A stretch of 64,000 nt of DNA from Chondrosia reniformis (Eukaryota > Porifera > Demospongiae > Chondrillida > Chondrillidae), in the NCBI GenBank assembly GCA_947172415.1, contig OX359191.1:1488001-1552000 (forward strand), written 5' to 3'. Position numbers and translations under genes: made by a program. Shown in pieces: positions 25,216 through 64,000 of this stretch. The stretch's first letter is position 1; the number at the start of each line of letters is the position of its first letter. The notes beneath the pieces are model-generated. The model searched no databases. It had not been told where the DNA came from and saw nothing but the letters and a program-made list of their open reading frames with translations.

Positions 25216-25589
25216 AGTGAAGTTCTCAATCAAAAGATAAATTTGGTTCACTTTCACCAATTGGCCATGAGTAATAACATTTGCACACACTGTCATTGAG
25301 GAAACTTTCATGTGAAGAAATACATTTTCATGTTGAAATATTTTAGTGGTCTGGGCCAACCCATAATTACGTTAATATGAGTTAATAAAAAAATTCATGC
25401 AAGATCTTTTCATTGTTTGAGTCAACCACAAATATAGTGTAAAAATTTCCCAATTATGTTATTATTAGTACATTTACTGGCATACACATAGTAAGAATTG
25501 TGCACAGACTATGGTAAATCACTGGAAATAATTAACCAATCACCAATTAGTGTAACACTAGTGCAACAGTAACAGTTGTGCTGGCTCTT

Positions 25590-25720
25590 TGATGATTTTA
25601 TCATCTCTTTCATGGCTGGGAGGCAATCACTGGTTGATATTATTACTTCTGTCTCCCCAGCCAAGATAACACTTTGGTGGCTTGGAATAATAATTTCCAG
25701 TGATGACTTTGTGTTGATGG
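25590..25720 (-). repeat. old copy of the hammerhead foldback element of 59.2 kb
   Basis: It shares CATGGCTGGGAGGCAATCACTG(GTT), CCCCAGCCAAGAT and TTCCAGTGATGAC with the right arm at 59620-59745, with many substitutions. The minus-strand frame across it (starting MNVSTSGS) overlaps the repeat and is not taken as a gene. Confidence 0.55.
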
Positions 25721-38700: not shown

Positions 38701-41700
38701 GCACCGTATCCATTCTCTATACATTTTATTTTCATGGTCATTGTGTGATGGAACAACTGTTTTCTCTTATTCAGTACAACTGTTTAATAGATTCAAAGAA
38801 AAAGGAACTTACCAACTTAATGGGCTCTATGAAAGTGTTACTTATGAAAGTGCCACTGTAGTCCATATTATAGTCCTATATTCTAGCAGCGTAGGGGATG
38901 TCAAGCTTTCGTTATAGCATTTGCATTCATTAATCTCTTCTATACCGTTTTTATACACATAACAATAACTGAACCGTTGAATGGTACGTATGTTACTTAT
39001 GGTTGTGTAAATGTGCTGGTACCGTCTTTTAAAAAAAGTTATTCATTGAATGGCTGTTATACGTAGGTGAAAGGGGAACTTTTTGCATCCTACTGTAGGT
39101 ACAGGATTACACACGTATACGTACATGCACTTATGAATAACTGAAGTAATAATTAAACCACAGGTAATTACAATTATTCTCAAACATCATGAAGAGGGAA
39201 AAACACTAAGAAGTGAATGCTGGCAATCAGTTGGTTAAGACTACCAGTGCTCTACCAATTGCCACAGCAATGCTCCCTTAATGGTTCCACTTCAAACTAA
39301 CTATAATACAAAGAAGTAACTAGTCTTCATTCACTATATAAATAGTGGTGATTCTCTTTATCAGACAAGCTGTATATAATATCAATAAGAAGTTGTATAT
39401 TAAACCTGTTAAGTTCAGACTCACAGAATTGGGTTTGTGGACCTCCAAACCTTCATTCTGGTAACTAGTCATTAAAAACTCAAAGACTTTAGCTTTTCCA
39501 TACATGACAGAGTAGTGAAGTGGAGTATTACCAGCTGCATCACCTTCATTCAAGGATGGGTGCGGCCTCTCCTCAAGAGGATCAGAGAGCAGAGTCTTAA
39601 CTATTTCAACATTACCCTGCAAAACTGCCCAATGCAGAGGGGTTTTGCCATCCTACAAATGGGTAAGCAAATAAGGAAAGTGATTTCAGTCCTAATTCAG
39701 ACAAATAAGCATAAAAGAGCAATTGTTGGGACCATCAGTGTTCTGTCACTGATCATAAGCACTGGAGCATTATAAGCACTGGAGCATTATAAGCACTGGA
39801 GCATTATAAGCACTGGAGCATTATAAGCACTGGAGCATTATAAGAACTGGAGCATTATAAGCACTGGAGCATCATTAAAAAACAGATTTAATGTTTTCAA
39901 TGCATTCTCTTTGAAGGACTGCTTCTAATTGTTTCAAATTTATCTTTCCCACATTTCGTCTAAAGCCGCTCAATTACAGACTTACCATTGAAAGGATAAA
40001 TATAAAACATGCACTTACAACAGTATAACCAGCAGATACAATGTCTACATATGTATATATATATAGACATACATATATAAGGCTTACATTATCTGGTAGG
40101 ACATGATACTCCTTTGGTGTCTGGTCAAGTAGACGTTTGACTGCTTCAAGATTGCAGTAGATCACTGCCTGCTGTAACAATGTTCTGCCATCCTATATAA
40201 TATAAAGCCACTCATAATACGTACATTAAAATAATTGCAATCACAAGTAGAAATAGAAATGCCTACAGTGTATTATACAGTGTAAAAATACACTGTATAA
40301 TCCATGTTTGCATAATAGTGGATTTAGTGAATTAAGTTAGAAGCACAGTGTATATATGTACAGTATAAAAACTTTCTACAAAGATCATATACTTATACGT
40401 ACAGTATATCATACTTATATGCTATGATCAATGTAAAAGGTTTACATAAAAAATCAAGAGAAATTACACATCATTTGCATTGGCTCGTGGATCAGTAGAA
40501 GAATTGATTCTATTCTTTTCAGAAAATGAAGTTCAAATTGTATGGAAAGAGAACTAGTCAAATGTCAGGTAATAGTGACCATACTGTTTGTACGGAAGAG
40601 GTGCACCCTTTTTAGGAAGCTGGATTAGAGGGAGTTAGTTGACAGTGTATTATACAGCTTTCTACATACGTATATATAATTCAACTGTAGTTTAGAAGGA
40701 AATCCATTCCATATATGGTATAATACATGGAAACTATACAATCAGTTACCAACATATATAAAAATCTTACCTTTCTCTGCATTTGAGGAAGCACATTCAT
40801 TTTTTTTGCTTTTTGAAACAGTAAATTAAAAATTTGGTCATCCGGTTTCCATTCTCTTACAGCTAGGAACAAAGGACTTTCTTCTTGCAACTCATCACGC
40901 TTTTGGACATTAGCTTGTTTAAGTAATTTCTCCACCAGATTGGCATCTTTTCTGATGGTCGCCCAATGAAGAGCATACTTACCATCAGCACCAGGTTCTG
41001 CATCGGGATCAGCGACATAGTCCTCTGTGGAACTAGCACCAGCACCTTTCTCCATAAGTTCTGTGGCCATAACTCTTATCTATAAATTATGCATCATATT
41101 TATACGATCTGACAGCATTAAAATGGACACCTGTAAATTATTTATAAATATGATTTTCTATACTTACTGCATTATGGTTATACTTTCCATTGACTACATG
41201 AGCAAGGGCCTTGTTCTTATCCCCATCAAACCTTAAAGTTTCCAGCAGTGTCTCAACGAGCAAGGTAGCTCCAGACTTCTCCACTTGGCTGTCTTGCTTA
41301 CACCAGTGTGGCTTTAATTCACTCTTGATATCTTTAAATTCAGTTTTTATCCCATCCTAAAGAAAGCAAATGAAACAACAAAGTATCAATATATATTAAT
41401 CAAACTTCAAGTAATCAATTCACAAACATCATGAATACAAAAGAAGCGTTACTGGGAAACTAATCCAGCCTGAAATATATACATACGTATGTCCATGAAT
41501 TAAAAGATATAGACCATATAGACTGTGCCTATTTCATACATTTATCTTTTAAGCCTGTAATCTACATATTCCACAGCCTCGTACCAACATGTTGAAATAC
41601 TCTTTCAAGTATCAAGGGGCATTTTATTTTAATAAATTACCATATGAGATTAAAGGAAAGACAGACTTATCCTGATAAGCAAAAGTATTCACTGGAAGAT

Positions 41701-43214
41701 ATTACGCCAAACCAGCCAAGGGACCGAAGTCTAATCTTGGCCGGGGGACCGAAGTCCTATTAAAAATGGCAACCAGTGATCGCCTCCCAGTCATCCAAGA
41801 TGGAAAAAAATTCATCAAAGAACCACAGTAAGATTAGACTTCGGTCCCTTGGCTGGTTTGGAGTAATATCTTCCAGTGAATACTTTTGCTTATCATCCTA
41901 GCCTTTGCACAGCTCAGTGCAATTAACTCCCTTTTTTCACAGACTTATCCTCTTTCAAAGAGTTCTCAGACTGAAAACTTTAGAGTAAAAATAATATTTG
42001 TATTATTTCAATGTAATAGAGTAAGGATTTCTTCTAACTGCGTTAATCTCATCTTTTGAAAGCATTATCTTTTGACTTATAGAGCGTGACTGATCGAAGA
42101 AGATCCTTGGGGTTGAAATGTCTGACAACCAACAAAATTAGATGCTCTAAAAGTTCAGTTGTAAGATGATCCTTGCAAAAGATATCATGCACAGGATCAA
42201 ATATCAGGTTTCATAAGGCTTGAAACCTATTTGAAACTCTTTGAATTGCCAAGTTTCAAAAGGTATGAAAGTATGTATAAAACTCGGAAAGGGGGCTGTT
42301 AAACGTTTTCTGCGAGATATGGCCTTGAAATTGACGGCAATCAAGCAACAACCGGAATCGGTTAACCAGATATCTAGGAACCAGCAGGAAGTTTGAGTTA
42401 TGAGCTGGTGCCCCACGAGTTTTTTAAATTCGAAATACTTGTTTTGGTCATACTTAAATCATCTTGTCTTTCTTATTCATTAAATTGTTAATTTTCGAGG
42501 TCTCATTGAAGGTTCATGCACTTTGAAAATATTTAACTCAAACACCTCAGTGGCCCTTTTTAAGGTGGTTCCTATGTACCCAAATGGAATGTACGGGTTA
42601 ATTAACCAACACAGACACAAACTCTAGTGGTCCTCATGCAAGGGGGGACAGCAGGATATTCCTTACTTCTACCCACTGAGTAAAGTTATATGCTGACGAT
42701 CTATCAGTCATCTCCTCCAAAATCAAAGAACATGCGGTGTCACCATTCAAAGCTCAGGGAACTAGGTAGCAGGAAATTGGTCCATTCCTTCCATCACCAG
42801 TATGGTCTGGTCTAGTTAATGGTAGCACATGAGAGGACTTACCTTTATATGCTGTAAACTCATTAGCTCCTCTAACCATGCCTCTTCACTTTGGCTAGCA
42901 TCAATCATCAAGACAACATCCTCATTTAATCTTTCCCAGTCTTCAAAGGAAGGTTTCATTGCGCTGTCACACGGAGCACCAGCATTCTCTCGGTCCTCCT
43001 TTTTTTTAAACTTGTCTTTTAGCTCTTTAAAAACTTTCCTGGGTCCCCCTAGCCTTCTAGAACTTGGAGGGGGTTGCTGGCTTGCTACTTGAGGTGAAGG
43101 CTGGCTTGCTACTTGAGGTGAAGGATCTTGTTCTCTACTTGGACCCCGGGACACCAGTTCAGTGACAACTTTGATTTCTTGTAACTCGTGTTCACCATTT
43201 GTAGAAACTGCCAT
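29748..43214 (-). CDS. ankyrin-repeat TRP-type cation channel (~27 exons)
   Basis: Approximate exons: 42843-43214 (MAVSTNGEHE), 41168-41356, 40771-41079, 40088-40192, 39425-39652, 38471-38608, 38284-38403, 38041-38175, 37585-37693, 37216-37407, 36830-37140, 36170-36271, 35988-36104, 35213-35308, 35048-35118, 34092-34379, 33622-33784, a 24-base exon near 33033-33060, 32307-32620, 31853-31923, 31540-31734, 31207-31461, 30525-30711, 30341-30452, 30078-30279, 29949-30013, 29748-29891. About 1,500 residues. After a charged N-terminus come ~10-12 ankyrin repeats (DGKTPLHWAVLQGN, GNTPLHYSVMYGK, FGRTPLHEAAYWG, KETVLHFAATNG, RQWTALHHAAYQN, GRTALHISAERRN), then a linker and six membrane helices. The pore loop is in WHTLFFGIRTLVEGGG, S6 is FLIIVLLNVLIAQMSKSYED, and a cytosolic helix and Pro-rich tail follow. 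Ankyrins plus 6TM with a TRP-style S6 fit TRPA/TRPV-type channels, but the subfamily is open. Introns carry many repeats. Confidence 0.82.
30850..31010. repeat. foldback MITE family member
   Basis: AAAAGGATCATCTTTCGAC is inverted as AAAGATGATCCTTTTC/CAAAAGATAAG. The centre has, on the minus strand, GACCCTCGGGGTCGAAACATC. It lies in an intron of the channel gene. Confidence 0.75.
32035..32125 (-). repeat. end fragment of the hammerhead-core repeat family
   Basis: CCTTTAGGGAACTAAACC and GGAGAGAGCTTTG match the inverted 3' end of 14640-14870. Confidence 0.6.
35690..35950 (-). repeat. hammerhead-core repeat family, inverted full copy
   Basis: On the minus strand it reads as 14640-14870. The core at ~35853-35895 has CTGATGA, a GGG/CCC stem II, GAAA and CGGCTGTC; the flanks can pair as GG-A-TCA with TGACC. 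It lies in an intron of the channel gene. Confidence 0.75.
37780..37935. repeat. foldback MITE family member
   Basis: TTGGATGGTTCATCTTCTC is inverted as AAAGATGAACCATCCAA. The centre carries an inverted GAAGAAGACCCTTGAGCC. It lies between channel exons at 38041-38175 and 37585-37693. Confidence 0.75.
39190..39295 (-). repeat. tRNA-derived SINE, copy 2
   Basis: On the minus strand GGGAGCATTGCTGTGGCAAT is followed by TTGGTAGAGCACTGG, close to a tRNA D-arm/A-box, and by CTTAACCAACTGATTGCCAG (anticodon-arm-like). It shares its upstream part with 10863-10975. No complete cloverleaf. Confidence 0.6.
39756..39872. repeat. 17-bp tandem repeat (~7 copies)
   Basis: The unit is ATAAGCACTGGAGCATT. It lies in an intron of the channel gene upstream of the ankyrin exon 39425-39652. 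Confidence 0.9.
41650..41945. repeat. internally deleted copy of the 59.2-kb hammerhead foldback element
   Basis: Left arm (GATAAGCAAAAGTATTCACT, GGGACCGAAGTCTAATC) and right arm (GACTTCGGTCCCTTGGC, AGTGAATACTTTTGCTTATC) are both present. The centre is lost at AAGAACCACAG, exactly where the hammerhead begins in the longer copy. The outer flank GCACTGAGCTGTGCAAAGGC also recurs, inverted, beside it. Confidence 0.8.
42035..42185. repeat. foldback MITE family member
   Basis: ATCTTTTGAAAGCATTATC pairs with AAGATGATCCTTGCAAAAG. The centre has GAAGAAGATCCTTGGGG and TTGAAATGTCTGAC. Confidence 0.7.
42186..42330. repeat. half copy of a second foldback family (GTTTCA-rich)
   Basis: AGGATCAAATATCAGGTTTC, AAACCTATTTGAAACTC and AAAACTCGGAAAGGGG match one arm of the copies at 49078-49305 and 62393-62620. 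Confidence 0.7.
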
Positions 43215-48330: not shown

Positions 48331-48592
48331 TAGGACCCATGCACATGAATGATCATGTACATTCTCACCCGGGTGTTATGCATATATATGCTGATATCAA
48401 TTGCAACCTTTTAGCTGGCTCTCTAAATACGTATAAGCTTTATTAAATTATATATTAATGCATACACGCTGACATATACGTACAAACATATATATATTAG
48501 AGATTACATGATAGGTTATGTTTTTCAAGCTAAGCCTCTTAGGATCAAATTATAGCATGCATGGTTCAATTCACTACATTAATGTTGAATTT

Positions 48593-51500
48593 TCAACTTC
48601 TTCTAAAGTTGAAGCATTTTGTGTTTTCTTCTGGCAAAGCAGACTCTGATGTCATGTGTACAGGCTGTGATTTCATAAAGCATTTGTAAAGTCTTTGCAA
48701 GTCTGAGATTTTTATGCCAAACCCAAGGTTTGCCAGTGGAATCAATCCAATCAAGAAGAAGGATGCAATGTTCAGAGCTACAGAGGTCTTGTTAACTATT
48801 GACTCAATATCTGGACATTCCTTATCATTACCCTCCAAATAGCATCTGGAAAATGATAGAATTTTGTTGATATAGCTATTTAGACCTCCTGAGGACTCAC
48901 TAAATCTCACTAACAAAAATACACCAGCAAAGACATAGAAAGTTGATAATGTTAATATCTTTGCTTCAGGTGTGAAGGAACGGTTCTTTTTAAATGATTG
49001 ACTCTATGAATATATAGATCATTAAAATAGATTATTTTGGCTTATTCATTTATTGATAGACTATATACATATGTACACAGGATCAAATTACAGGTTTCAT
49101 ATGGTGTGAAATCTATTTGAAACTTCTTGAACAGCCAGGTTTCAAAGGGTGCTCAAGAATGTGCTAACAGATTAATTTCTCAGGTTTCAAGTTTTAACAG
49201 CCCCCTTTCCGAGTTTTATACATACTTACATACCTTTTGAAACCTAGCAGTTCATAGAGTTTCAAATAGGTTTCATGCCTTCTGAAACCTGATATTTGAT
49301 CCTGTGATAGCATTATTTTATAGACATGCATGCCTATACTGTATAATATGTATATACCTTCCAAGCAATCCAAAAGATATTTGCTAAAAATGACACTCCA
49401 AGTGGTACAATGATGTTTATTGGTAGAATGATTGAGTAAAACACTACATCAAGATCATTTGCTACACAAACTAATGGTGGAAGCCGTGTCAGAACATATT
49501 TGTATTTTGCAAGGACAACAATTGGCCCAATACTGCATATCAGTGCTGTAATCACCATTACTGATACATGGATAAGGTTTAGATGTTTAGTGAGTCTTCT
49601 TGACCAAATTGGAAAGAAGAGTGTAATCCAAATGTGTATAATATGAAGGAGCCACAGGATGAAGGCAAATGTGACAGTAAACTGGAAAGTTACACCTGTA
49701 CATATTGAAATGAATTATGTAAATACACAAAATTAAGTGTAATATGTATGTACTTTCAAGCTCTAAGTAGATACGTAGTACTATATATATATATTTGAAG
49801 CATATAAAGTGTGTACTTATTGTGTGTATATATAATATATATATTGAAATGTTTATATGTGTTGCACATATTACTGCATGGCATATTATATAGCCATAGC
49901 AAATTAAATGACATACCAGATATCATGCAATAAGCTGTTGGCTCAGCTAGAATTGTTTGTAGAAAATCTGAATGACTACAATATAGACCATTGTCTGGAT
50001 ACACTTTTCCAATGAGAACTACAATAGCTAAAAGGTATAAACTGTGTTTGACATGCACGTGCATGATTTAAAATAATATATAGGTGGACCATGATCTGCT
50101 ATGAGCACAAAGACCTATTGCTAATTCATATAGGATGGGAGGCAATCACTGCATGGTTGCCATTTATATATAAAATTAATTTAATCAATATAGATTGGCC
50201 TCCAAAATTATTAATATTTGTTTTATCTAAGTACATATATGCAAACATTAATAATTTTTTCTTACCTAGAGCTGAAAGGATTATATTTATGTACAAAATA
50301 ATAATCATTGGGTATCTCAATCTAAGAACAAGAAAAAGAGAATACAAATAAAATATTGTGGGTAATGCATGAATATAGAGATACAGCAATGATTTAATAA
50401 TCTCAGAGATATCAAGAATTTATTAGAAATGGTACTTACAATGTTTCCCTTCTCTTATACACTAAGATCAGGTAGGCACTTGCTGTCAAAAAGCAGGTTA
50501 CAATTGTGAGGTAAATGAAAAATGCTTCAGTTATTTGCCCTGATTCTGTGTTTATCCGAAAAGTGGAACAACTTGGCAAACAAAAACAATCCACTTGAGT
50601 AAACAATGCAGCACATTGAAGAGTTCCTACTGATTCATTAGTCTTAACATATTGGCCTTCTTTACTCAAGGCTGGTCTGCATGGAAGATTGTTACAGTCA
50701 TGTAGGAGACTAGAGTATTCAGGTAGGAGAGATAGCAATGTCCATTCCACTTTACATGTGTCGGTTTGAACATTGAAGCACTCTTCTCTGGTTGGTAATA
50801 CTATGTTGGAGACTCCTGTATTTATACAGGGTGGAAAGAAATACTGACAGAGAAATGGTAATCCATCTTCCTTGCACTCACTAGACACAATGGGACTATT
50901 CAACAACTGTGTAATTAAAGAATCTATTTCTGAAATGGAACAGCTTTCTTTACCAAGAATGGTACAATTTGGTTGCACTTTAATCTCATCATATGAGAGG
51001 TCTTCGAATTCAACAATGTCAGTCAACACATCTGTGCAGGGACCACTATTTCCATAAGTTACACAGTCTGGAAGCTTATAACCCTGTAGAATCACGAGTG
51101 AAAATTGTTAATACATGAGTGAAACATAATACCACAATGCATGCTTACAGCATTATATTGGATGTATACATATTATAGTAGCTATCTTGCATATGACCCT
51201 TAATTATATATATACGTACATATAGAATTGTTAATTAAAAGAGGAATAGGATAATTGAGGTTGCTTAAATAGACTAATTGCTATCTGTGAGATATAATAG
51301 AGTCTATAGTGACTGTACATGCATATGTTAATTCACTTCGTTCTAGTGTTCTGGATATAAGTTTATAGGTTTCTGTATACATTTAACATCTGCTTCATCC
51401 TATTGTATACTTATGCAAAAATGAAATCAGTATATAGACTTCCCAAACAATTGCATGAGTTTAAGTTGCACTACACAATCAAAAGGTGGTCCATGTACGT

Positions 51501-51855
51501 ATATATTTTACTTTAATTATAATTTCAATATTAAGGAAAGGATTATAGGAGTTAACATTGTGTAATTTATACGTACAAATGTAATACGTCTTCATGCGTA
51601 TACCTTTGTCACATTTGCCAAAAATTCAGAAGTTGTATTCAATTCACATACTTCATTGGAGGAAATACTTTTTGGTAAACAAATCCCTTTGAGACTTTGA
51701 AAGAAATTAGTAAGATCATTAATATATTGGATACTACCACCTTCTCTTGAACGATAATAGAAAATCACTGGCAAGAGAAAGAGTACCCAAACTGTCAACA
51801 CAGCTATTATATGGATTAGTATTCCAATGACTTGAGGTCCCTTCATCATGATCAT
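48593..51855 (-). CDS. Frizzled-like CRD seven-membrane receptor, copy 1
   Basis: Six exons, 51604-51855, 50440-51083, 50266-50321, 49917-50027, 49358-49695 and 48593-49003, total exactly 604 codons. The start MIMMK is chosen because copy 2 shares it and diverges upstream. Residues ~8-31 are hydrophobic (signal anchor). Exon 2 is a Frizzled-type cysteine-rich domain: ECKEDGLPFLCQYFFPPC, LPTREECFNV, DTCKVEWTLL, LHDCNNLPC. Then come seven membrane helices: FFIYLTIVTCFLTASAYLIL, YPMIIILYINIILSAL, TFQFTVTFAFILWLLHIIHI, VMVITALICSIGPIVVLA, FYSIILPINIIVPLGVSFLA, ILTLSTFYVFAGVFLLV and IASFFLIGLIPLANLGFGI, and a ~35-residue tail. Class F receptors bind Wnt or sterol through the CRD and signal through Dishevelled or Smoothened routes. 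The Dishevelled-binding KTxxxW motif after helix 7 is not present (KISDLQRLY), so canonical Wnt signalling is doubtful. Confidence 0.8.
49078..49305. repeat. foldback element, GTTTCA-rich family
   Basis: AGGATCAAATTACAGGTTTC at one end pairs with GAAACCTGATATTTGATCCT at the other. The arms are ~90 bases. It lies in the last intron of receptor copy 1 and is absent at that place in copy 2. Related copies: 42186-42330, 62393-62620. Confidence 0.8.
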
Positions 51856-52329
51856 ATACTTATATTCTCTGTCTATATAGCTAGCTGACTGATCATGATA
51901 TATATATGTATGTAGACTGCAAATAGTGTTTACAGAGTATCGTGCAGATTGGCAATTATCGTGTTTGTTATAACATTTCCTCATTTTTTGTTTCCTTATA
52001 TGAACATCCCACAAATAGCTTATAGGATCGAGTGACACTCTTGCAGAACCAAAATATTATTCTGTTTTCATTGACAAAAATGAGAGGTTAATTTAATTTG
52101 TTATAATGTTGAAGCCATTTTGACTAATGTTTGTTTTGCAAAAACATGCTGCTTTCTTCCTATATAGAGACACAGCGGTATATACGTTAACTTATGCATG
52201 CATGAGCGGTATATATGTACGTATATACATGCATGAATATTATTACAATGTCATACACGGGCTCAAAAGTGAGCCACTTATAGGTTAAATTATAACTGTT
52301 TCACTATACATCAAAGTTGAATTTTCAAA
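51856..52329. other. upstream region of receptor copy 1
   Basis: About 330 bases above the ATG are shared with the regions above copy 2 (57410-57800) and above the fossil first exon (53080-53440), including GGCAATTATCGTGTTTGTTA and ACATTTCCTCATTTTTTG. This is the likely promoter block of the family. An extended open frame upstream of the ATG lacks support because it is not kept in copy 2. Confidence 0.5.
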
Positions 52330-53080
52330 ATTTTCCGAAGTACGTTGAAGCATCATTTGGCAAAGCAGATTGGAGCAATTGTGAAAGTACATCTGAGATT
52401 TTTTTGCCAAACCCATGCAAGGTTTGTCAGTGCATTGAATCAATCCAACCAAGAAGAAGGATGTAATGTTCAGAGAAACAAATGTTTCTTGTTAACTATA
52501 TATATTGACTCTACATTTGGACATTCCTTATCATTGCCCTCAAAATAGCCAGTCCAATCAGGAAGAAGGATATTAGCTATGATAAAAGAGAGACAGTTTA
52601 GTTATCTCTTTCCCACTCAAATATCAAGAAGTAATTTTGTGTTTGACAATTACTGAAGTTCATCTCTTCCAAACTGCCTCACTATGATGTACATATATAC
52701 ATGTACTATTTTACTTTAGTATCCTACATTCATACTTAGTGATCGACAATAGTAACATGAGACAGATATACGTATTATCTGGTGGGTCTGATAATGTAAT
52801 ATATATAACTGTAGTTACCAAAGTAATTTTACAAAAACAGATTGACGTTTTTTAATGTATGGTGAGATATAATAGGGTGTTTGACTGTGAACATGCACGT
52901 GCATGATATAATAAGTGGACCATGATCTGCTATAGCTATATAGTGAGCACGTCTCTTGAACAATAATAGAAAATCACTGGCAAAGAAAAGAGTCCCCACA
53001 CTGTCAACACAGCTATTATATGGATTAGTATTCCAATGACTTGAGGTCCCTTCATCATGATCATATATATACTTATATTC
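52330..53080 (-). pseudogene. chimeric receptor fossil (last exon, intron piece, first exon)
   Basis: 52330-52570 is a decayed last exon (AAACCCATGCAAGGTTTGTC, AATCCAACCAAGAAGAAGGA). 52875-52945 matches intron sequence beside exon 4 (GACTGTGAACATGCACGTGC). 52950-53075 is a first exon (KGPQVIGILIHIIAVLTVWG). The exons between are missing, so an internal deletion has fused the ends of one receptor gene. Confidence 0.75.
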
Positions 53081-53664
53081 TCTGTCTTAATAGCTAGCTG
53101 ACTGATATGTATATACATATAGAGCTTGAGGCTGCAAATAGTGTTTATAGAGTATGCATGCAGAATTGGCAATTATCGTGTTTGTTATAACATTTCCTCA
53201 TTTTTTGTTTCCTTATATGAAATAGCTTATAGGAGTGACACTCTTGCGGAGCCAAAATATTATTCTGTTCCCATCGACATTTATGAGAGGTTAATTTAAT
53301 GTTGAAGCCATAAATTTGACTAATGCTATAATGTTTGTTTTGCAAATGCATGCTACTTTCTTCCTATATAATACACAGTGGTATAAATGTGGTATGTACA
53401 CATACATGAATATCATTATAATGTTTGACATACACGGGCGCGCAAAGATGAGCCTCTTACGTAGGCTAAATTAAAGCTGTTTCACTATACATCGATTAAT
53501 GTTGAAATTTTCCAAAGTTGAAGCAGTTATGTACTTTTCTTAATAAGAGAATCATTTGGCAATACAGATTTTGTAAGTTTTTGAATGATGGCTATATATA
53601 TGATGGCTGTAGCTATACACTGTAGCTAGAGGGGGTAGAATTATCTTTTAGTAATTGTGATTTG

Positions 53665-53880
53665 TGTACCTTCCAAGCAATCTAGAAGATATTTGCCAAA
53701 AATGACATACCCATAGCCATGAAATGATGTGATAGTATTTATCGGACAAATGATTGATCATTGCCCACAAACTAAAGTGGAATTTATGAATTGCAAAGAT
53801 ATGTACAACAATTGCATGGTTCAATGAATATACCACTGTTGTGATCATCATTACTGATACATGGCTATATATAGAGTGCA
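53665..53880 (-). pseudogene. fossil of receptor exon 5, second duplication unit
   Basis: This matches 48095-48330 (ACCTTCCAAGCAATCTAGAA, GATATTTGCCAAAAATGACA, GTTGTGATCATCATTACTGA) at an offset of ~5.57 kb. Confidence 0.65.
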
Positions 53881-54130
53881 TAGGACACAATACAAACATC
53901 CTGAATGCTTCACCTGAGTGTTATGTGTATGCATGAAATCAATTGCAACCTTTAAGTTCCTAGCTGGCTCTCTCTCAAGGAATATATGTAGATGTACATA
54001 AATTTAATGTGCTGTGGTTTAAGCTTTATTAATGCATGCATGCTGACATATACGTACAAACAGATAATAGAGTTTACATGATAGGTTATGGTTTTCAAGC
54101 TGAGGATCAACTTATAGCATGCATGGTTCA

Positions 54131-57100
54131 CTACATCGATGTTGAATTTTCAACTCCTTTCAAAGTTGAAGCGTTCTGTGTTTTCTTCTTAAACGAATTA
54201 TTTGGCAAAGCAGATTTTGATGTCATGTGTACAGGCTGTGATTTCATAAAGCATTTGTAAAGTCTTTGCAAGTCTGAGATTTTTATGCCAAACCCAAGGT
54301 TTGCCAGTGGAATTAATCCAATCAAGAAGAAGGATGTAATGTTCAGAGCAACAGAGGTCTTGTTAACTATTGACTCAATATCTGGACATTCCTTATCATT
54401 ACCCTCAAAATAGCATCTGGAAAATGATAGAATTTTGTTGATATAGTTATTTCGACCTCCTGAGGACTCACTAAATCTCACTAACAAAAATACGCCAGCA
54501 AGGATATAGAAAATTGATAATGTTAATATCTTTGCCTCAGGTGTGAAGGAACGGTTCTTTTTAAATGATTGACTCTATGAAAAAGTAAATCATTAAAATA
54601 GATTATTTTGGCTTATTCATTTATAGATATAGACCTATATACATATGTGCTTGCTTATATATATGACATTATTTTATATGTATAGACATGCATGCCTATA
54701 CTGTCTAATATATGTATATACCTTCCAAGCAATCCAAAAGATATTTGCTAAAAATGACACTCCAAGTGGTACAATGATGTTTATTGGTAGAATGATTGAA
54801 TAAAACACTACATCAAGATCATTTGCTACACAAACTAATGGTGGAAGCCGTGTCAGAACATATTTGTATTTTGCAAGGACAACAATTGGCCCAATACTGC
54901 ATATCAGTGCTGTAATCACCATTACTGATACATGGATAAGGTTTAGATGTTTAGTGAGTCTTCTTGACCAAATTGGAAAAAAGAGTGTAATCCAAATGTG
55001 TATAATATGAAGGAGCCACAGGATGAAGGCAAATGTGACAGTAAACTGGAAAGTTACACCTGTACATATTGAAATGAATTATGTAAATACATAAAATTAA
55101 GTGTAATATGTATATACTTTCAAGCTCTAAGTAGATACGTAGTACTATATATAATTAAAACATGTAAAGTGTGCATTTACTATGTGTATTTATATGTTTT
55201 TATGTGTAACAGTTGTATAGTACTGCATGGCATATATGTATATATATAGACGTACCAAATTAAATGACATACCAGATATTATGCAATAAGCTGTTGGCTC
55301 AGCTAGAATTGTTTGTAGAAAATCTGAATGACTACAATATAGACCATTGTCTGGATACACCTTTCCAATGAGAACTACAATAGCTAAAAGGTATAAACTG
55401 TGTTTGACTGTGAACATGCACTTGCATGATATATATAATAAGTGGACCATGATCTGCTATAGCTAGTGAGCGTATATATCTTGATTAGGGGATTAAATTA
55501 ATTTTACAAATGACAACCATGCAGTGATTGCCTCCCATCCTATATGAATTCGGTCTTTGTGCTTTGCTGGTCAGAATAATGGCCTCTAATATTATTAATA
55601 TTTAAGTATACACAAACAGTAATAATTTTTTCTTACCTAGAGCTGAAAGGATTATATTTATGTGCAAAATAATAATTATTGGGTATCTCAATCTAAGAAC
55701 AAGAAAAAGAGAATACTAATAAAATATTGTGGGTAATGCATTAATTTAGAGATGCAACTTGATTTATCTCAGAAATATCATCAAGAATTTATTAGAAATG
55801 GTGTATATAGAATTAACGTTCATATACTTACAATGTTTTCCTTCTCTTATACACTAAGATCAGGTAGGCACTTGCTGTCAAAAAGAAGGTTACAATTGCG
55901 AGGTAAATAAAAAAATCTTCAGCTATTTGCCCTGATTCTGTGTTTACCCGAAATGTGGAACAACTTGGCAAACAAAAACAATCCACTTGAGTAAACAATG
56001 AAGCACATCGGACCATTTCTACTGATTCATTAGTCTGAATATACTGGCCTTTGTTAGACTGTGATACTTTTGGGAGACAATTGCAATCAGGAAGAGAACT
56101 AGAGTAATCAGGAAGATTTGATAGAATTGTCCATTCCACTTTACATGTTTTAGTTTCTATCTTTATGCAATCTTGCTTGGATGGCAGCACTATGTTGGAT
56201 GTATCATTTACACAGGGTGGAAAGAAATACTGACAGAGAAATGGTAGTCCATCTTCCTTGCATTCACTAGACACAATAGGACTATCCAACAACTGTGAAA
56301 TTAAAGAATCTATTTCTGAAATGGAACAGCTTTCTTTACCAAGAATGGTACAATTTGGTTGCACTTTAATCTCATCATCATATGAGAGGTCTTCGAATTC
56401 AACAATGTCAGTCAACACATCTGTGCAGGGACCACTGTTTCCATAAGTTACACAGTCTGGAAGCTTATAATCCTGTAGAATCATGAGTGAAAATTGTTAA
56501 TATACACATTTAATTTAGTGAAACATATAATACCACCATGCATGCTTACAGCATTATATTGGACGTATACGTATAGTAGCTATATATTAACTTGCATATA
56601 TATATGACCCTTATATATAGAATTGTTAAGGACAAGAAGTATCTTCAATCTCATCATATGAGAAGTCTTCAACAATGTTATTCAACACACTAATGCAGGG
56701 ATCATTATTTCCATATTGTATACATTGTGGAGTTAAACACTATACACCAATATAACAGGTGAGGCATTTATACGTATATATACAGGCTGGACCCCATGAA
56801 ATTATACAAATTGCTATATATACTATGTACCATATGTACCATGAAAAACTCAAAGTACACGTTAAAGAATTTTATAGCTGTTTTGTAAAAGGTTCTTTGA
56901 GAGTCAATTATCTAGGTGGTTAATTATATATATCTGAATGTACCACAATGGAAAATATGCATGGTATATATGATCTTAAACTTGTATCAGATTACATATG
57001 CACTGTTAACAGGATGACCATTTCAGAACAACTTCCAATATATATTATGTCTGTGCATTGAAATATAAGGCTACATGTATATTTTCAATGCACAAACAAT

Positions 57101-57406
57101 AATACTAGCTCTTATAGAAATAACTTGTGTTATATACGTACGCATATGTACCTCTGATTCATTTACTGAAACTTTTGTTATGTTCAAATCTCCTTGACAA
57201 GATTCATTGAAGGATATATTTTTTGGTAAACAAATCCCTCTGAGACTTTCAAAGAAATCGGTAAGATCATTAATATATTGGATACTACCACCTTCCTTTG
57301 AACGATAATAGAAAATCACTGGCAAAGAAAAGAGTCCCCAAACTGTCAACAGAACTATTATATGGATTAGTATCCCAATGACTTGAGGTACCTTCATCAT
57401 GATCAT
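54131..57406 (-). CDS. Frizzled-like CRD seven-membrane receptor, copy 2
   Basis: Exons 57152-57406, 55832-56472, 55637-55692, 55273-55383, 54722-55059 and 54131-54574 give exactly 615 codons. The layout equals copy 1: N-terminal anchor, Frizzled-type CRD, seven helices. The tail is longer and ends VENSTSM. Exons 5 and 6 are almost identical to copy 1 (RLPPLVCVANDLDVVFYSII, INIIVPLGVSFLANIFWIAW). In contrast the second half of the CRD differs clearly (PSKQDCIKIETKTCKVEWTI, LSNLPDYSSSLPDCNCLP), whereas copies 1 and 3 agree there. All Cys positions of the core CRD are kept, except that the CNNLPC motif of copies 1 and 3 is CNCLPK here. Function as for copy 1; ligand unknown. Confidence 0.8.
56640..56735 (-). 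pseudogene. fossil of the start of receptor exon 2 inside intron 1 of copy 2
   Basis: TCAATCTCATCATATGAGAA, TCAACAATGTTATTCAACAC and GCAGGGATCATTATTTCCAT match the 5' part of exon 2 (KVQPN upstream block) with many changes. It is a partial internal duplication. Confidence 0.65.
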
Positions 57407-57839
57407 ACGTACGTATACTTATATTCTCTGTCTTAATAGCTAGCTGACTGATATATATACGTATAATATGTAGACTGCAAATAGTATTTATAGAGTATAG
57501 TGCAGATTGGCAATTATCGTGTTTGTTACAACATTTCCTCATTTTTGTTTCCTTATATGAACATCTCACAAATAGTTTATAGGAGTGACACTCTTGCAGA
57601 GCCAAATATTATTGTGTTTTCGTTGACATTTATTAGAGATTAATTTAATTTGTTATAATGTTGAAGCCATAAAATCTGACTAATGTGTGTTTTGCAAATA
57701 CATGCTACTTTCTTCCTATATACAGACACAGCAGTATATACATACATGTATGAATATTATTATAATGTCATACACTGGCTCAAAGGTGAGCCTCTTATAG
57801 GTTAAATTAAAATTGTTTCACTATACATGTACATCGAAG

Positions 57840-58320
57840 TTGAATTTTCAATTTTTTCTAAAATTGAAGCAGTTATGTACTCTTCTTAAGAGAATCATTT
57901 GGCAAAGCAGATTGGAGCAAGTTTTTGAGAGTCTGAGATTTTTATGCCAAACCCATGCAAGGTTTGTCAGTGCATTGAATCAATCCAACCAAGAAGAAGG
58001 ATGTAATGTGCAGAGAAACAAATGTTTCTTGTTAACTCTATTGACTCTACATTTGGACATTCCTTATCATTGCCCTCAAAATAGCCAGTCCAATCAGGAA
58101 GAAGGATAATAGCTATGATAAAAGAGAGACAGTTCAGCTATCTCTTCCTACTCGAATATCAAGAAGTAATTTTGTGTTTGACAATTACTGAAGTTCATCT
58201 CTTCCAAACTGCCTCACTATGATGTACATATATACATGTACTATTTTACTTTAGTATCCTACATTCATACTTAGTGATCGACAATAGTAACATGAGACAG
58301 ATATACGTATTATCTGGTGG
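57840..58320 (-). pseudogene. receptor last-exon fossil with conserved downstream block
   Basis: 57880-58100 equals the decayed last exon at 52345-52570. The following ~230 bases (CTCTTCCAAACTGCCTCACT, GATCGACAATAGTAACATGA, ATTATCTGGTGGGTCTGATA) are nearly identical to 52570-52800. Being this similar while non-coding, the two blocks date the unit duplication as recent. Confidence 0.75.
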
Positions 58321-58699
58321 GTCTGATAAGGTAATATAACTTTAGTTACCAAAGTAATTTTACAAAAACAAATTGATGTTTTTTTAATGTATAATGTGAT
58401 ATAATAGGGTATACATAAACATATACGTATTATTTGTCATAAAATTTAAAAAAACTCATTGGATATATTTTATAAATCTCTGTGACAACTGTCACCAAAT
58501 TATAGTTTCATAATATGTATAATATATATCAGCTTATTTGGTAGAGTTATACATTAAAATATAGTATTATATGCAAACTTATAAACTTCCAATCTACATT
58601 ATAATAATGGTATACATATACGTTTATATGAAAAGTGCTGAAATATTTAAACATTGCATGTCCAAAGATGAGCATTAACCCTTTGAGAATTATTGACTT
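58321..58699. other. non-coding spacer
   Basis: Very AT-rich 3' flank of receptor copy 3; nothing recognised. Confidence 0.35.
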
Positions 58700-61600
58700 T
58701 TAATTTTCAACTTTATTGGAGGTTGACATTGTTTGTGATCTCTTAAAGGAATCAGATGAAAACACAAGCTTCAATGTTCCAGGCTGAGATTTTGTAAACC
58801 ATTTGTAAACTCTTTGAAAGTCTGAGCCTTTTAGACCAAACCCAAGGTTTGTCAGTGGAATAAGCCCAAGCAAAAAGAAGGATGTAATATTCAGAGCAAC
58901 AGAGGTCTTGTTAACTATTGACTCAATATCTGGACAATCCTTATTTCTGCCATCAAAATAGCATCTTGAAAATGATAGTATATTGTTGACGTACTCATTA
59001 TGACTTCCAGTGGACTCACTAAATCTCACTAAAACGATGACACCAGCAATGACATAGAAAGTGGACAGGATTAATATTTTTATTTCAGGAGTGTAGGAGC
59101 GATTCTTGCTAAGTGACTGTCCCTATAAATTATAGAGAGTACAAGTGAGCATAATAATATTATAGAACATATATATATAAAACTGAACATGAAAAAAGGG
59201 AGTTAATTGCACTGAGCTGTGCAAAGGCTAGGATGATAAGCAAAAGTATTCACTGGAAGATATTACGCCAAACCAGCCAAGGGACCGAAGTCTAATCTTG
59301 GCTGGGGGACCGAAGTCCTATTAAAAATGGCAACCAGTGATCGCCTCCCAGTCATCCAAGATGGAAAAAAATTCATCAAAGAACCACAGACAGCTGTTTC
59401 GCCCTCATTTGGGCTCATCAGTGTGGTACACTTCAATGATGGTGAGTTGGATGACCGTCTTCACTTATTAATCAGCCACAAGTGAAACACTTGTGGTTTC
59501 ATAATAAACAAAGATGGAGGGCTGCAGTCTAAGCGAGACCGAGTGCTCACAATGAACCACACTGATGAGCCCAAATGAGGGCGAAACAGCTGTCTGTGGT
59601 TCTTTGATGAATTTTTTTCCATCTTGGATGACTGGGAGGCGATCACTGGTTGCCATTTTTAATAGGACTTCGGTCCCCCAGCCAAGATCAGACTTCGGTC
59701 CCTTGGCTGGTTTGGCGTAATATCTTCCAGTGAATACTTTTGCTTATCAAAACTGAACATATTTAATGTAATACGAATATATAGCCATACATTATACAAA
59801 CACAAAATGGCAATTAATGCATCACAATTAGTTGCCTTGCTTAACAGCTCAGCAATACATAAACAGTATATATATAGAGAGAGATATAACAATGCTTGCT
59901 TTAGTATAAATGTACATAAGAGATTTAATGTAATAATAGAAGGACAAAATGGCAGCTTTATTCAATGTATCATAATTTATACATTTAGTAATTATTATAT
60001 AGAAATGTAAAGAGAGATTACTTGGATATGATGTTATGATTTACATATATATATGTACCTTCCAAATAAGCCAGAGAATATTTGTCAAAAATGACACTCC
60101 AAGTGGTGTGATAATATTTATCGGAAATACGATTGAATAAAACACTAAATCAAGATCATTAGCTGCACAGGCTGTAGGTGGAAGCCGTGTCAGAACATAT
60201 TTGTATTTTGCAAGGACAACAATTGGTCCAATACTAAATATCAGTGCTGTAATCACCATTACTGATACATGGATAAGGTTTAGATGTTTAGTGAGTCTTC
60301 TTGACCAAATTGGAAAGAAGAGTGTAATCCAAATGTGTATAATATGAAGGAGCCACAGGATGAAGGCAAACGTGATAGTAAACTGGAAAGTGATACCTGG
60401 TGAAAAAATATACGTATGTATATAATAATAACATAGCACACATGCATGTAATACATATATATAGATATTATACATTCAAAAATGAAGTTGGACGTAGGGA
60501 TGGTGCATATGGTGACCCTGCAACAGTGACTGATACATCTGGAAAATTAACGAAAAAGACAGTGTTCATATGATAAGGCTAATTAATCATGTAGAATTGG
60601 TATACTGAAGCTTAGTCATACACATCGTTATCATTTCTATGTCTGGGCGCATCAGGACCTTGTTTCGATATGTTTTCCCAATATGTCAATCACTTATGCA
60701 GGCACTGCCATCCCTACAACTTTTAGTTAGTACACTTGTTTGTAAAGTTTTATTAGCGATATTTTAACACATAATATTATATTGAAGATCTCTGTGTGGC
60801 TAGGTGTATTCATGCTTCAGAATCTGGAACTGCACTAGCCAAGGGATTGGGACAGATGTCGCTTGTCAATGATTACCAAACGTTTCGACCCAATCTCGGG
60901 TCTTCATCAGTGGTAGTGAGATTACAGGGCATGGTGACTTATATATCGGTAGGGGGAGGGGCAGGTGAGATGGCTGTGGGCGGGAAAATAATGGGTGGGA
61001 AGCTGGGAGTGTGGGTGGTCACGTGAGGTATATTTTATGCAGTAAGATAAAACAAACAGTGCAGTAAGTAAGGAATAAATAGTGAAAGTGTGTGACTGGA
61101 TGGGTCAAGGGGTGGGTGGGGCTTGACTAGTCTGAGGATCGAGGCTGGCAGACGAGGAGGTCATAAACCGGGGGGAGGTTGCCTTCATCTCTATTCATTG
61201 TGTTCAATTCAGATCGGATATGCCACGATTCCAGCAGGCATCTCTGTTGATATTGCTGCTGAACATCCATCACTGTGGCACCCTCCCAGTCAATGTCGTG
61301 CGACTCCTGTGCAGCATGCTCTGCCACTGCCGACTGTGCCAGGTGTCCACTCACTAGAGCCCGTTTGTGTTCCTTCAGCCGTTGGGCCAGTGTTCTGCCA
61401 GTCTGGCCTACATACACTCTGGGGCAACCGTTGCAGGGGATCCTGTAGATCACCCCTGCCTTCTGCTGGAGAGGGACCCGGTCCTTCAAATTGACCAGTG
61501 CCTGTCTCAGAGTCCGGTGTGGTCTGAAGCAGGCACGGATCTTCAGCGGGGAGAGGATGCGCCGAATGGATTCTGACAGATGCTTAACGTAAGGGATGAC

Positions 61601-64000
61601 CACCACGGCTTTGGGAGTGTCCAGTTCAAGAGGGGGAGTGGAGTGGGGTGTCGCCCACAGCCATCTCACCTGCCCCTCCCCCTACCGATATATAAGTCAC
61701 CATGCCCTGTAATCTCACTACCACTGATGAAGACCCGAGATTGGGTCGAAACGTTTGGTAATCATTGACAAGCGACATCTGTCCCAATCCCTTGGCTATA
61801 TAGTGCAGTTCCAGATTCTGAAGCACATAATATTATAATACACATGTACACATAATGACATACCAGATATTGTGCAATAAGCTGTTGGCTCAGCTAGAAT
61901 TGTTTGTAGAAAATCTGAATGACTACAATAAAGAGCATTTTCTGGATATACCCTTCCAATAAGAACTACAATAGCTTTAAAGATAAATTAAAGCATTATG
62001 TACGTACATACGTATATTGATATATCTGTGAGACTATTATACAAGGTGAACGTAAGGGCCTAACAAAAATGTCCTATAACGTTTAACTATGAGGGTTTAG
62101 GAGTCTAAGAACTGTCTATAGCTTTTATTAGATATATAGTCCCTATAAGCTGGTGCTGTCAAGGAAATGCTAATTGATTTTAACTAATATACCTATATAC
62201 TAGCTTTTAACTACCATTCTTCAATTCATCAATTATTACATAACAAAGCAAATTAAGCAGTGTTGTTACTTTCGTACATTATCTCTTATGCTGTGTGTGT
62301 ACATGTACGTATAAACCTATATTTACGCTATATACTACAAGATTTTACATACATACATACAATTCTATATAATAATAATATATCATGCACAGGATCAAAT
62401 GTCAGGTTTCATAAGGCATGAAACCTATTTGAAACTCTTTGAACAGCCAGGTTTCAAAAGGTATGAAAGTATGTATAAAACTCAGAAAGGGGACTGTTAA
62501 AATTTGAAACCCATGAAATAATCTACTTATATATTTGAGCACCCTTTGAAACCTGGCTGTTCAAGAAGTTTTAAATAGGTTTCATGCCATATGAAACCTG
62601 AAATTTGATCCTGTGATGAGAGCTGAATATCTCTTACCTAGAACAGAAAGGAGTATATCAATATATAAAATAAGTATTGCTGGATACTTCAATCTATGCA
62701 AAATACGTATATATAAAGTAAGTATAAGAATTTCAGCCATGCAAGTCATGATATACATATAGGCTTCTGAAAATGAACAGAATATACATAATTACTATTT
62801 GGTAAGGCTTCTAATGACATCTAATTATCCATATATGTATCACTCACATAGAACTTCAACTTATACTAGCATACAGGTTAATACTGAAAATGAAAGAATC
62901 ACTAAAAATGATCAAAACAAGATGTATAGATAAAAATGCTATTGAAGCATATAGGAATGGTTAAATTGTTATTAGATATAATCACTATCCATATGTAGTT
63001 TTAGCATTATCTGCAAGTGCACTTCCATGAAACACACATATTCATAGTAAGTATATGGGCAGTTAATGGGACTATATAGATGGTTCATACTCTGTTGAGT
63101 AGCTTATATACATAGCTAGGGGCCCATCAGTATATATATGGTCACATTATTATATAAATTCTTGTTTCAATTATTTTGAGATTTACATCCTGCAAACTGC
63201 CATAAATTATTGTGTATTTTCAATGTTGTACATGTGCTCTTTGTTATTGTTATGGATTAATATATATTCTATTTGAAGCAGCGAAAATTACAAATGCAAG
63301 TTTCAACCCATTTCAAATTCAATTTCATTGCTGATAACTCCAATAAACAGATTTTCAGACTCAATGAATGCAATTAAAACTACTCACTCACCCTCTTTTT
63401 TACTTACTTATGGGAGTTTTTATTAAGATTGTATGTTTAACTTAATAATATTACTTACAATGTCTTCCTTCTTTTATACACCAATGCAAAGAAGACACTT
63501 GTTGTCAAAAAGCATATGACAATGGCAAAGTAAATGAAAAGATGTTCAGCTATAAGCCCTGAATCGGTGTTTACCCGGAATGTGGAACAACTTGGCAAAC
63601 AAAAGCAATCCACTTGAGTAAACAATGCAGCACATTGAAGAGTTCCTACTGATTCATTAGTCTTAACATATTGGCCTTCTTTACTCAAGGCTGGTCTGCA
63701 TGGAAGATTGTTACAGTCAGGTAGGAGACTGGAGTATTGAGGTAGGAGAGATAGCAATGTCCATTCCACTTTACATGTGTCGGTTTGAACATTGAAGCAC
63801 TCTTCTCTGGTTGGTAATACTATGTTGGATGTTCCTGTATTTATACAGGGTGGAAAGAAATACTGACAGAGAAATGGTAATCCATCTTCCTTGCACTCAC
63901 TAGACACAAAGGGACTATTCAACAACTGTGTAATTAAAGAATCTATTTCTGAAATGGAACAGCTTTCTTTACCAAGAATGGTACAATTTGGTTGCACTTT
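58700..64000 (-). CDS. Frizzled-like CRD seven-membrane receptor, copy 3 (5' end outside window)
   Basis: Exons seen: 63459->64000 (CRD, cut by the window edge), 62638-62693, 61864-61974, 60059-60396 and 58700-59122, with the same phases as copies 1 and 2. The CRD half visible is almost the same as copy 1 (LPTREECFNVQTDTCKVEWT, ALSKEGQYVKTNESVGTLQC). The membrane exons are the most divergent of the three (RLPPTACAANDLDLVFYSIV; FFLLGLIPLTNLGFGLKGSD), and the tail ends SNKVEN. Its introns are long because they hold a hammerhead foldback element (59195-59750), a Penelope-like remnant (60812-61822), a dispersed repeat (60485-60720) and a GTTTCA foldback (62393-62620). The reading frame is intact in all visible exons, so the gene looks alive. 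Confidence 0.8.
59381..59428 (-). ncRNA. hammerhead ribozyme, type I (left arm)
   Basis: Minus strand: 5' stem I GTACCACA, CTGATGA, stem II GCCC/GGGC with a six-base loop, GAAA, CAGCTGTC, 3' stem I TGTGGTTC. Stem I has one mismatch out of eight. All core bases are kept. Confidence 0.75.
59554..59602 (+). ncRNA. hammerhead ribozyme, type I (right arm)
   Basis: Stem I is GAACCACA (59554-59561) with TGTGGTTC (59595-59602), eight perfect pairs. CTGATGA is at 59562-59568, stem II GCCC/GGGC (59569-59582, loop AAATGA), GAAA at 59583-59586, and then CAGCTGTC with the GUC cleavage triplet at 59592-59594. Stem III alone is only two pairs, but ACAGCTGT is self-complementary, so two molecules could share an eight-pair stem III. 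Short stem III, often dimeric, is the known form of hammerheads in Penelope-like elements. Confidence 0.85.
60485..60720. repeat. dispersed repeat copy (family of 1650-1840)
   Basis: AAGACAGTGTTCATATGATA, AGGCTAATTAATCATGTAGA, ATACTGAAGCTTAGTCATAC and TTCTATGTCTGGGCGCATCA follow the order of the copy at 1650. It lies in an intron of receptor copy 3. Confidence 0.6.
61127..61669 (-). CDS. GIY-YIG endonuclease C-terminus of the Penelope-like element
   Basis: An uninterrupted 180-residue frame opens inside the right arm. It has the linker typical of the end of the reverse transcriptase (VVVIPYVKHLSESIRRILSP, CFRPHRTLRQALV, KDRVPLQQKAG), then the GIY-YIG domain: VIYRIPCNGC, PRVYVGQTGRTLAQRLKEHK, SAVAEHAAQESHDIDW and CLLESWHI with the conserved Glu, and ends LLVCQPRSSD. 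The motif R-x3-L-x-EH and the CNGCP zinc-knuckle-like pair are diagnostic for animal Penelope-like elements. The frame is open end to end, so the insertion is young, but it lacks its catalytic partner. Confidence 0.88.
   Translation of the reverse strand: MRWLWATPHSTPPLELDTPKAVVVIPYVKHLSESIRRILSPLKIRACFRPHRTLRQALVNLKDRVPLQQKAGVIYRIPCNGCPRVYVGQTGRTLAQRLKEHKRALVSGHLAQSAVAEHAAQESHDIDWEGATVMDVQQQYQQRCLLESWHIRSELNTMNRDEGNLPPVYDLLVCQPRSSD
61719..61760 (+). ncRNA. hammerhead-like core in the Penelope-like arm
   Basis: TACCA (61719-61723), CTGATGA (61724-61730), an extra A, stem II GACCC/GGGTC, GAAA (61748-61751), CGTT, TGGTA (61756-61760). Stem I pairs TACCA with TGGTA; ACGT next to the GAAA is self-complementary, so stem III could form only between two molecules. 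The same motif lies inverted at 60874-60915. The extra A before stem II departs from the strict consensus. Confidence 0.55.
62393..62620. repeat. foldback element, GTTTCA-rich family
   Basis: AGGATCAAATGTCAGGTTTC at one end and ATGAAACCTGAAATTTGATC at the other are inverted; arms ~90 bases. It matches 49078-49305. It lies between exons 3 and 4 of receptor copy 3. Confidence 0.8.
63290..63395. repeat. fragment of the foldback family of 13728-13865
   Basis: TTTCATTGCTGATAACTCC, AATAAACAGAT and ATGAATGCAATTAAAACTAC match the right half of the 13.7-kb copy. It lies in intron 2 of receptor copy 3. Confidence 0.55.

Follow-up and report, generated by a model that had tools for sequence, protein, structure and literature searches.

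A probable truncated Penelope-like element with inverted pseudo-LTR-like arms and opposed hammerhead motifs in an intron of a Frizzled-like gene of Chondrosia reniformis

The host gene and its intron

The window, a stretch of 64,000 nucleotides of contig OX359191.1 from the sponge Chondrosia reniformis, carries on its minus strand a tandem array of three Frizzled-like receptor genes (48400-64000), with dS values between them of 0.14-0.39. The insertion described here lies in an intron of one of these genes.

59123-60058, minus strand: GT-AG intron of 936 nt in a Frizzled-like gene, with its flanking exon blocks aligned to two paralogs

The flanking exon blocks display 82-90% DNA identity to two Frizzled-like paralogs in the window and contain no stops, and one exon of a paralog scores 33.8 bits against the Pfam Fz domain (cut-off 32.1); the intron placement given in the original prediction is supported by this alignment and by the GT-AG boundaries. 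The receptor gene had in addition been called live, which the absence of stops and the pairwise dN/dS of the host exons against the two paralogs (0.37 and 0.40) only suggest: judged by sequence comparison these ratios point to constrained exons, and they do not prove expression of this copy. The equivalent introns of both paralogs lack detectable similarity to the 59123-60058 intron outside the exons, and are too diverged for an empty site to be demonstrated.

Architecture of the insertion

The element is delimited by two exact copies of the 12-mer AAAACTGAACAT, which occurs in the whole window only at 59179 and 59749. Because these duplicates sit directly outside it, the element is assigned to 59191-59748, its ends being fixed only to within 1-2 bases wherever element and target have a letter in common.

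59179-59190, no strand: left target-site duplication (TSD), AAAACTGAACAT
59191-59748: whole element, 558 nt, GC 45%, span set by the flanking 12-bp TSDs
59191-59233, minus strand: one-sided tail of 43 nt with a 6-bp stem-loop, the 3' end of the element in the minus-strand sense read
59234-59430, minus strand: sense pseudo-LTR-like arm, inverted repeat of 197 nt, 99%
59383-59427, minus strand: type I hammerhead on the host-gene strand, Rfam RF00163, 34.6 bits (gathering score 34), predicted cut 59389/59388
59431-59552, no strand: interior between the arms, 122 nt, with a 9-bp palindromic hairpin CCACAAGTG-AAA-CACTTGTGG near its centre
59553-59748, plus strand: inverted pseudo-LTR-like arm without tail, the 5' end in the sense read, its outer end (59748/59749) adjoining the TSD
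59556-59600, plus strand: type I hammerhead, mirror copy, Rfam RF00163, 34.6 bits (gathering score 34), predicted cut 59594/59595
59749-59760, no strand: right TSD, the second of the two exact 12-mer occurrences

An element had been placed at 59195-59750; its existence stands, its bounds are corrected to those listed, and the one-sided tail had been overlooked. As detected, the inverted repeat pairs 59234-59430 with 59553-59749 (197 nt each, 99% complementary, 2 mismatches). The 43-nt tail has no partner at the right side of the element and recurs letter for letter at 41896-41938, in a separate insertion; such a tail in separate insertions, together with their TSDs, makes an assembly artefact unlikely. 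The longest ATG frame overlapping 59191-59748 encodes 62 aa, in keeping with the earlier description of a short element without ORF, and the sense of this ORF-less element was assigned from the tail and from the ORF strand of a neighbouring insertion (60770-61837). Read on the minus strand, the element comprises, in order, the predicted hammerhead cut, 155 nt, the putative near start site (no tail) and the putative far start site (tail). The predicted fold of the whole element reaches -435.9 kcal/mol.

A 51-aa frame runs from an AUG in the hammerhead core of either arm to a stop before the tail (59418-59263, minus strand; 59565-59720, plus strand). It may be the remnant of an ORF start, by analogy with the Penelope-like element (PLE) of Anolis, because the ORF of the latter also begins at the hammerhead in the account given in PMC11167929.

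The hammerhead motifs

Both motifs score 34.6 bits (E 6.9e-05) against Rfam Hammerhead_1, above the gathering score of 34 by only 0.6 bits, which confirms the opposed hammerhead pair in a foldback that the original prediction had proposed, by the very search over the window that it had suggested as a check. The core is complete and comprises (i) CUGAUGA, (ii) a GCCC/GGGC stem II, (iii) GAAA, (iv) a loop-less ACAG/CUGU stem III, and (v) the GUC triplet. As had been described, the right copy preserves all core bases, an 8-bp stem I, a 4-bp stem II and GUC, and the left copy carries a single mismatch in stem I.

A strict descriptor of our own (5-bp stem I, 4-bp stem II, CTGANGA/GAAA core, and a paired stem III ending in T, then A, C or T, with G-U allowed) matched a single locus in the window, once per strand. 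A chance motif is rejected, since 200 dinucleotide shuffles of the window gave 0 matches. Two independent ribozymes are likewise rejected, the second copy following from the inverted repeat; with arms that are mirror images, the pair amounts to a single observation. Pattern scans of the viral and genome contig sets for hammerhead and arm returned 0 matches in each set. Folded alone, the right 49-mer reaches -19.8 kcal/mol (z -4.06) and the left 48-mer -16.5 kcal/mol (z -2.85), the optimum being in neither case the hammerhead fold.

Further copies of the family

Three other copies of the family are found in the window:

41661-41951, plus strand: deletion copy, with 13-bp TSDs ACAGACTTATCCT at 41661-41673 and 41939-41951 and the element at 41674-41938
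41674-41828, 41830-41895 and 41896-41938, plus strand: inverted arm, short sense arm and tail of the deletion copy, from sequence alignment
16024-16178, minus strand: older copy in which tail and short arm abut the opposite arm (~81% arm identity), without the hammerhead region
25571-25718, plus strand: older copy, one arm, ~72% identical (blastn and alignment)

The copy at 41.7 kb is the same foldback minus 293 central nt, with nearly all of both hammerheads gone. The 16.0-kb copy was found by blastn, and its alignment to tail and arm was equalled by 0 of 500 shuffles; the opposite half of the 25.6-kb copy does not rise above chance, 32 of 500 shuffles doing as well, these shuffles preserving base composition only. 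The copies of the family lack central parts to differing extents.

Long near-perfect inverted arms and direct flanking duplications are also what a foldback or MITE-type DNA transposon with long terminal inverted repeats, having acquired a hammerhead, would display. That origin is very improbable: the inverted repeat stops short of one end, where the 43-nt tail, identical in two insertions, stands on one side only, the TSDs measure 12 and 13 bp in these two insertions, though only one base apart, and the copies lack central parts to varying extents. A DNA transposon with terminal inverted repeats is accordingly rejected, being largely refuted by the unpaired tail together with the unequal TSDs.

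A neighbouring insertion with a GIY-YIG match

A second PLE-type insertion, of another family, displays the same plan as the reported element at a distance of ~1 kb:

60770-61837, minus strand: second insertion
60770-60781 and 61826-61837: TSDs CATAATATTATA, 12 bp
60782-60812: one-sided tail, 31 nt
60813-60982 and 61652-61825: inverted arms, ~170 nt
61127-61681, minus strand: open frame between the arms with a match to GIY-YIG (Pfam PF01541)
near 60910 (minus strand) and 61724 (plus strand): hammerhead-like cores (CTGATGA...GAAACG) with one extra base before stem II

Penelope-like elements have GIY-YIG as their endonuclease domain, as set out in PMC11167929. The PF01541 match of the open frame (E 0.00016, 22.4 bits) lies just under the cut-off of 22.6 and covers half of the profile; NCBIfam models returned nothing near any cut-off on this frame, and a protein-based scan with 157 aa of it gave 0 matches in the viral contig set. 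Across the three insertions with readable ends, which belong to two families, the TSDs measure 12, 12 and 13 bp, and the tails of the two families (43 nt and 31 nt) have in common only the string CCTAGCC. The second insertion apparently occupies the adjacent intron of the host gene; an exon-like block at 61854-61976 is ~17 bases away.

The cores of the second insertion are hammerhead-like only and are not counted as ribozymes, given the extra base before stem II and the lack of a Rfam Hammerhead_1 match in this insertion, where Hammerhead_3 reached 11.5 bits against a cut-off of 48.5.

Other repeats in the window

A third dispersed repeat family, with three copies at 14642-14880, 22877-23092 and 35708-35943, displays a hammerhead-like core (CTGATGA...GUC). 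Its stem III letters vary (AUGG, ACGG or ACAG opposite CUGU) and still pair with G-U allowed, and the 22.9-kb copy misses the G of GAAA. These cores are not counted as ribozymes either, there being no Rfam Hammerhead_1 match in the whole-window scan, nor in the one of the three copies that was also scanned singly.

In addition, a palindromic repeat family occurs at 42190-42303, 49076-49306 and 62388-62615, with arms of ~80-130 nt that are 79-94% complementary between copies; the 49-kb copy is intronic in one Frizzled-like paralog, as is seemingly the 62-kb copy in another. The repeat tracts at 23718-24317 and 16928-17493 are open in several frames, with repetitive translations such as YPPIYPPF and HANTLSLS, and a hairpin at 22255-22339 scores 45 bits to mir-4536, short of the gathering score of 76, the opposite strand matching more weakly.

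Assignment to Penelope-like elements

We interpret 59191-59748 as a truncated, non-autonomous PLE insertion with inverted pseudo-LTRs (pLTRs), each carrying one minimal type I hammerhead, and give this reading a probability of about 0.85. The features in its favor comprise (i) inverted pseudo-LTR arms, (ii) a one-sided tail in both families, and (iii) short TSDs of varying length. The reverse transcriptase (RT)-GIY-YIG ORF of an autonomous PLE is absent from 59191-59748, and because no overlapping ATG frame exceeds 62 aa we class the element among truncated or non-autonomous derivatives. A Pfam scan of 8 of the 37 long frames identified no RT in the window; since neither RT nor endonuclease sequence lies inside 59191-59748, the PLE origin rests on the anatomy and on the neighbour.

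The original prediction had implied a novel foldback, distinct from Penelope elements. This does not hold, the TSDs, tail and inverted pseudo-LTRs fitting PLEs already described and a neighbour carrying a GIY-YIG match. The PLEs Pen2a_Av and Pen2_Av of Adineta vaga comprise inverted pLTRs of ~180-220 bp with a 31-bp tail on one of them, TSDs of 9-10 bp (some insertions being without), truncated members and palindromes at the inverted junction, according to the descriptions in PMC3846280, and thus resemble the reported element in inverted pLTRs, one-sided tail, short TSD, truncation and central palindrome. The same descriptions place an ORF, a partial ORF or captured host sequence between the pLTRs, whereas the interior of the reported element is only 122 nt; furthermore, the word "hammerhead" is absent from that paper (PMC3846280), whereas the reported element has hammerheads.

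In the Poseidon element PAc of Anolis carolinensis, as presented in PMC11167929, reverse transcription begins internally in the RNA, at two neighbouring sites whose spacing corresponds to the tail; cleavage and extension involve both DNA strands, and the hammerhead lies at the pLTR/ORF junction, upstream of the RT start sites. The reported element is alike in having a hammerhead upstream of putative RT start sites that would define the tail; in contrast, PAc is arranged in tandem with a full RT-EN ORF, and the reported copy is inverted and non-coding (PMC11167929). Type I hammerheads of a minimal form without helix III are found within the pseudo-LTRs of PLEs, and dimers may be their active state (Cervera & de la Pena 2014 and Lunse et al. 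2017, as summarised in PMC7761336). The reported motifs resemble them in a stem III without usable loop, for which a dimer is expected; according to the same summary, the minimal PLE hammerheads stand in tandem, so that two can pair within one RNA, whereas those of the reported element are on opposite strands.

Inverted pLTRs and hammerheads are each already known in PLEs, and their combination is for this reason expected. Among the matches listed in a literature search covering titles and abstract openings, with subscription papers mostly outside, no inverted hammerhead pairs in a foldback appeared, which is weak evidence.

The rival that comes closest is a metazoan non-LTR retrozyme, i.e., a small non-coding RNA circle with a type I hammerhead, mobilised by PLE enzymes, a copy of which landed as an inverted dimer. 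Small size, a GC content of 45%, a type I hammerhead and a TSD of more than 4 bp are retrozyme traits as characterised in PMC7229834, the longest ATG frame is only 62 aa, and mobilisation of retrozymes by PLEs/Terminons has been suggested (PMC7761336, in its summary). Metazoan retrozymes share with the reported element short non-coding units, type I hammerheads and, when present, TSDs; as portrayed in the source, they are direct tandem repeats of ~150-450 bp with canonical type I hammerheads and with neither tail nor inverted arms (PMC7229834), whereas the reported element is inverted and tailed. The window holds no direct tandem of the hammerhead unit, the loop-less minimal stem III is of the type described for PLEs in PMC7761336, and a one-sided tail is a PLE trait in the accounts of PMC11167929 and PMC3846280. 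A retrozyme origin is therefore improbable.

Proposed insertion route, dimer formation and quenching

For the truncated PLE insertion, a PLE enzyme acting in trans would cut the target DNA and begin reverse transcription inside the element RNA. The arm that bears the 43-nt tail would derive from the far start site and the tailless arm from the near one; the two cDNAs would then meet head to head, or a fold-back would prime the second. In the parental, presumably tandem, RNA, two sense hammerheads would pair via the self-complementary ACAGCUGU and cut as a dimer. In the inverted copy, on the other hand, the ribozyme would be locked in a hairpin of ~197 bp, and this locking would also account for its tolerance on the coding strand of an intron.

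For two strands of the 49-mer, the predicted optimum coincides exactly with the double hammerhead (-45.1 kcal/mol). The single hammerhead (-14.6 kcal/mol) is not the monomer optimum, and the gain of the dimer over two monomers, each in its own optimum (2 x -19.8 kcal/mol), is only 5.5 kcal/mol. These modelled energies support the original view that the loop-less, self-complementary stem III favours dimers. It had also been stated that a transcript of either strand holds one sense ribozyme and the complement of the other, which is correct; the consequence had been missed, namely that the antisense arm is made first, leaving the sense ribozyme downstream of its own complement, with which it can pair. 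With the minus-strand hammerhead imposed on the fold, the penalty is 67 kcal/mol for the whole element and 56 kcal/mol for a transcript ending just after the hammerhead, both values being equilibrium energies. Because pairing with the antisense arm is predicted to beat the hammerhead by 56-67 kcal/mol, the ribozyme at 59191-59748 is probably quenched in cis. Moreover, the two hammerheads are on opposite strands, and therefore one transcript cannot build the double hammerhead from both.

A domesticated intronic ribozyme pair regulating the splicing or expression of the receptor gene would agree with the GT-AG intron location, with the left hammerhead (59383-59427) lying on the coding strand of the host gene, and with host exons that look constrained (dN/dS 0.37-0.40 against the paralogs). 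It is nevertheless the least credible of the alternatives: the insertion seems recent, its TSDs being intact and its arms 99% identical, folding back of the arms is predicted to suppress the hammerhead, and the corresponding introns of the two paralogs hold no match to the insertion.

Does the ribozyme cut set template ends?

Taking the truncated PLE insertion as the preferred reading, a further and doubtful proposal is that in vivo hammerhead self-cleavage sets the 5' ends of PLE templates and that the ribozyme falls silent once the copy has inserted head to head. PMC7761336 describes the role of PLE hammerheads as unknown. In the 41.7-kb copy, the inverted arm overruns the predicted cut by 1 nt (GAACCACA|G), which is where run-off from an RNA with a ribozyme-made 5' end would leave it. 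Of the five inner junctions in the window, this is the only one to fall within 1 nt of the cut, a post hoc count, and the chance of one such junction is ~2% by a rough post hoc estimate, before allowing for five tries. The other junctions are placed differently: (i) in the reported element, the inverted arm continues 42 nt past the cut; (ii) in the second insertion (60770-61837), it continues ~100 nt past the putative cut; (iii) in the 16.0-kb copy, the junction starts at the 59640-equivalent, 45 nt short of the cut; and (iv) in the 25.6-kb copy, the match starts from 59585, ~10 nt past the cut, in a diverged arm not assignable as sense or inverted. For PAc, PMC11167929 states that hammerhead mutants still insert in vitro, that no RNA reads end at the cut, and that the hammerhead needs added protein to cut in vitro.

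Implications

If this proposal were true, foldback copies would be both a product of ribozyme cleavage and self-quenched, and hence safe in introns. The clean TSDs, constant tails and readable junctions provide a genomic test of whether cDNA 5' junctions pile up at the cut. In addition, quenching in cis is a candidate reason why an intron of the host may tolerate a self-cutting RNA motif, an idea that lends itself to testing in vitro.
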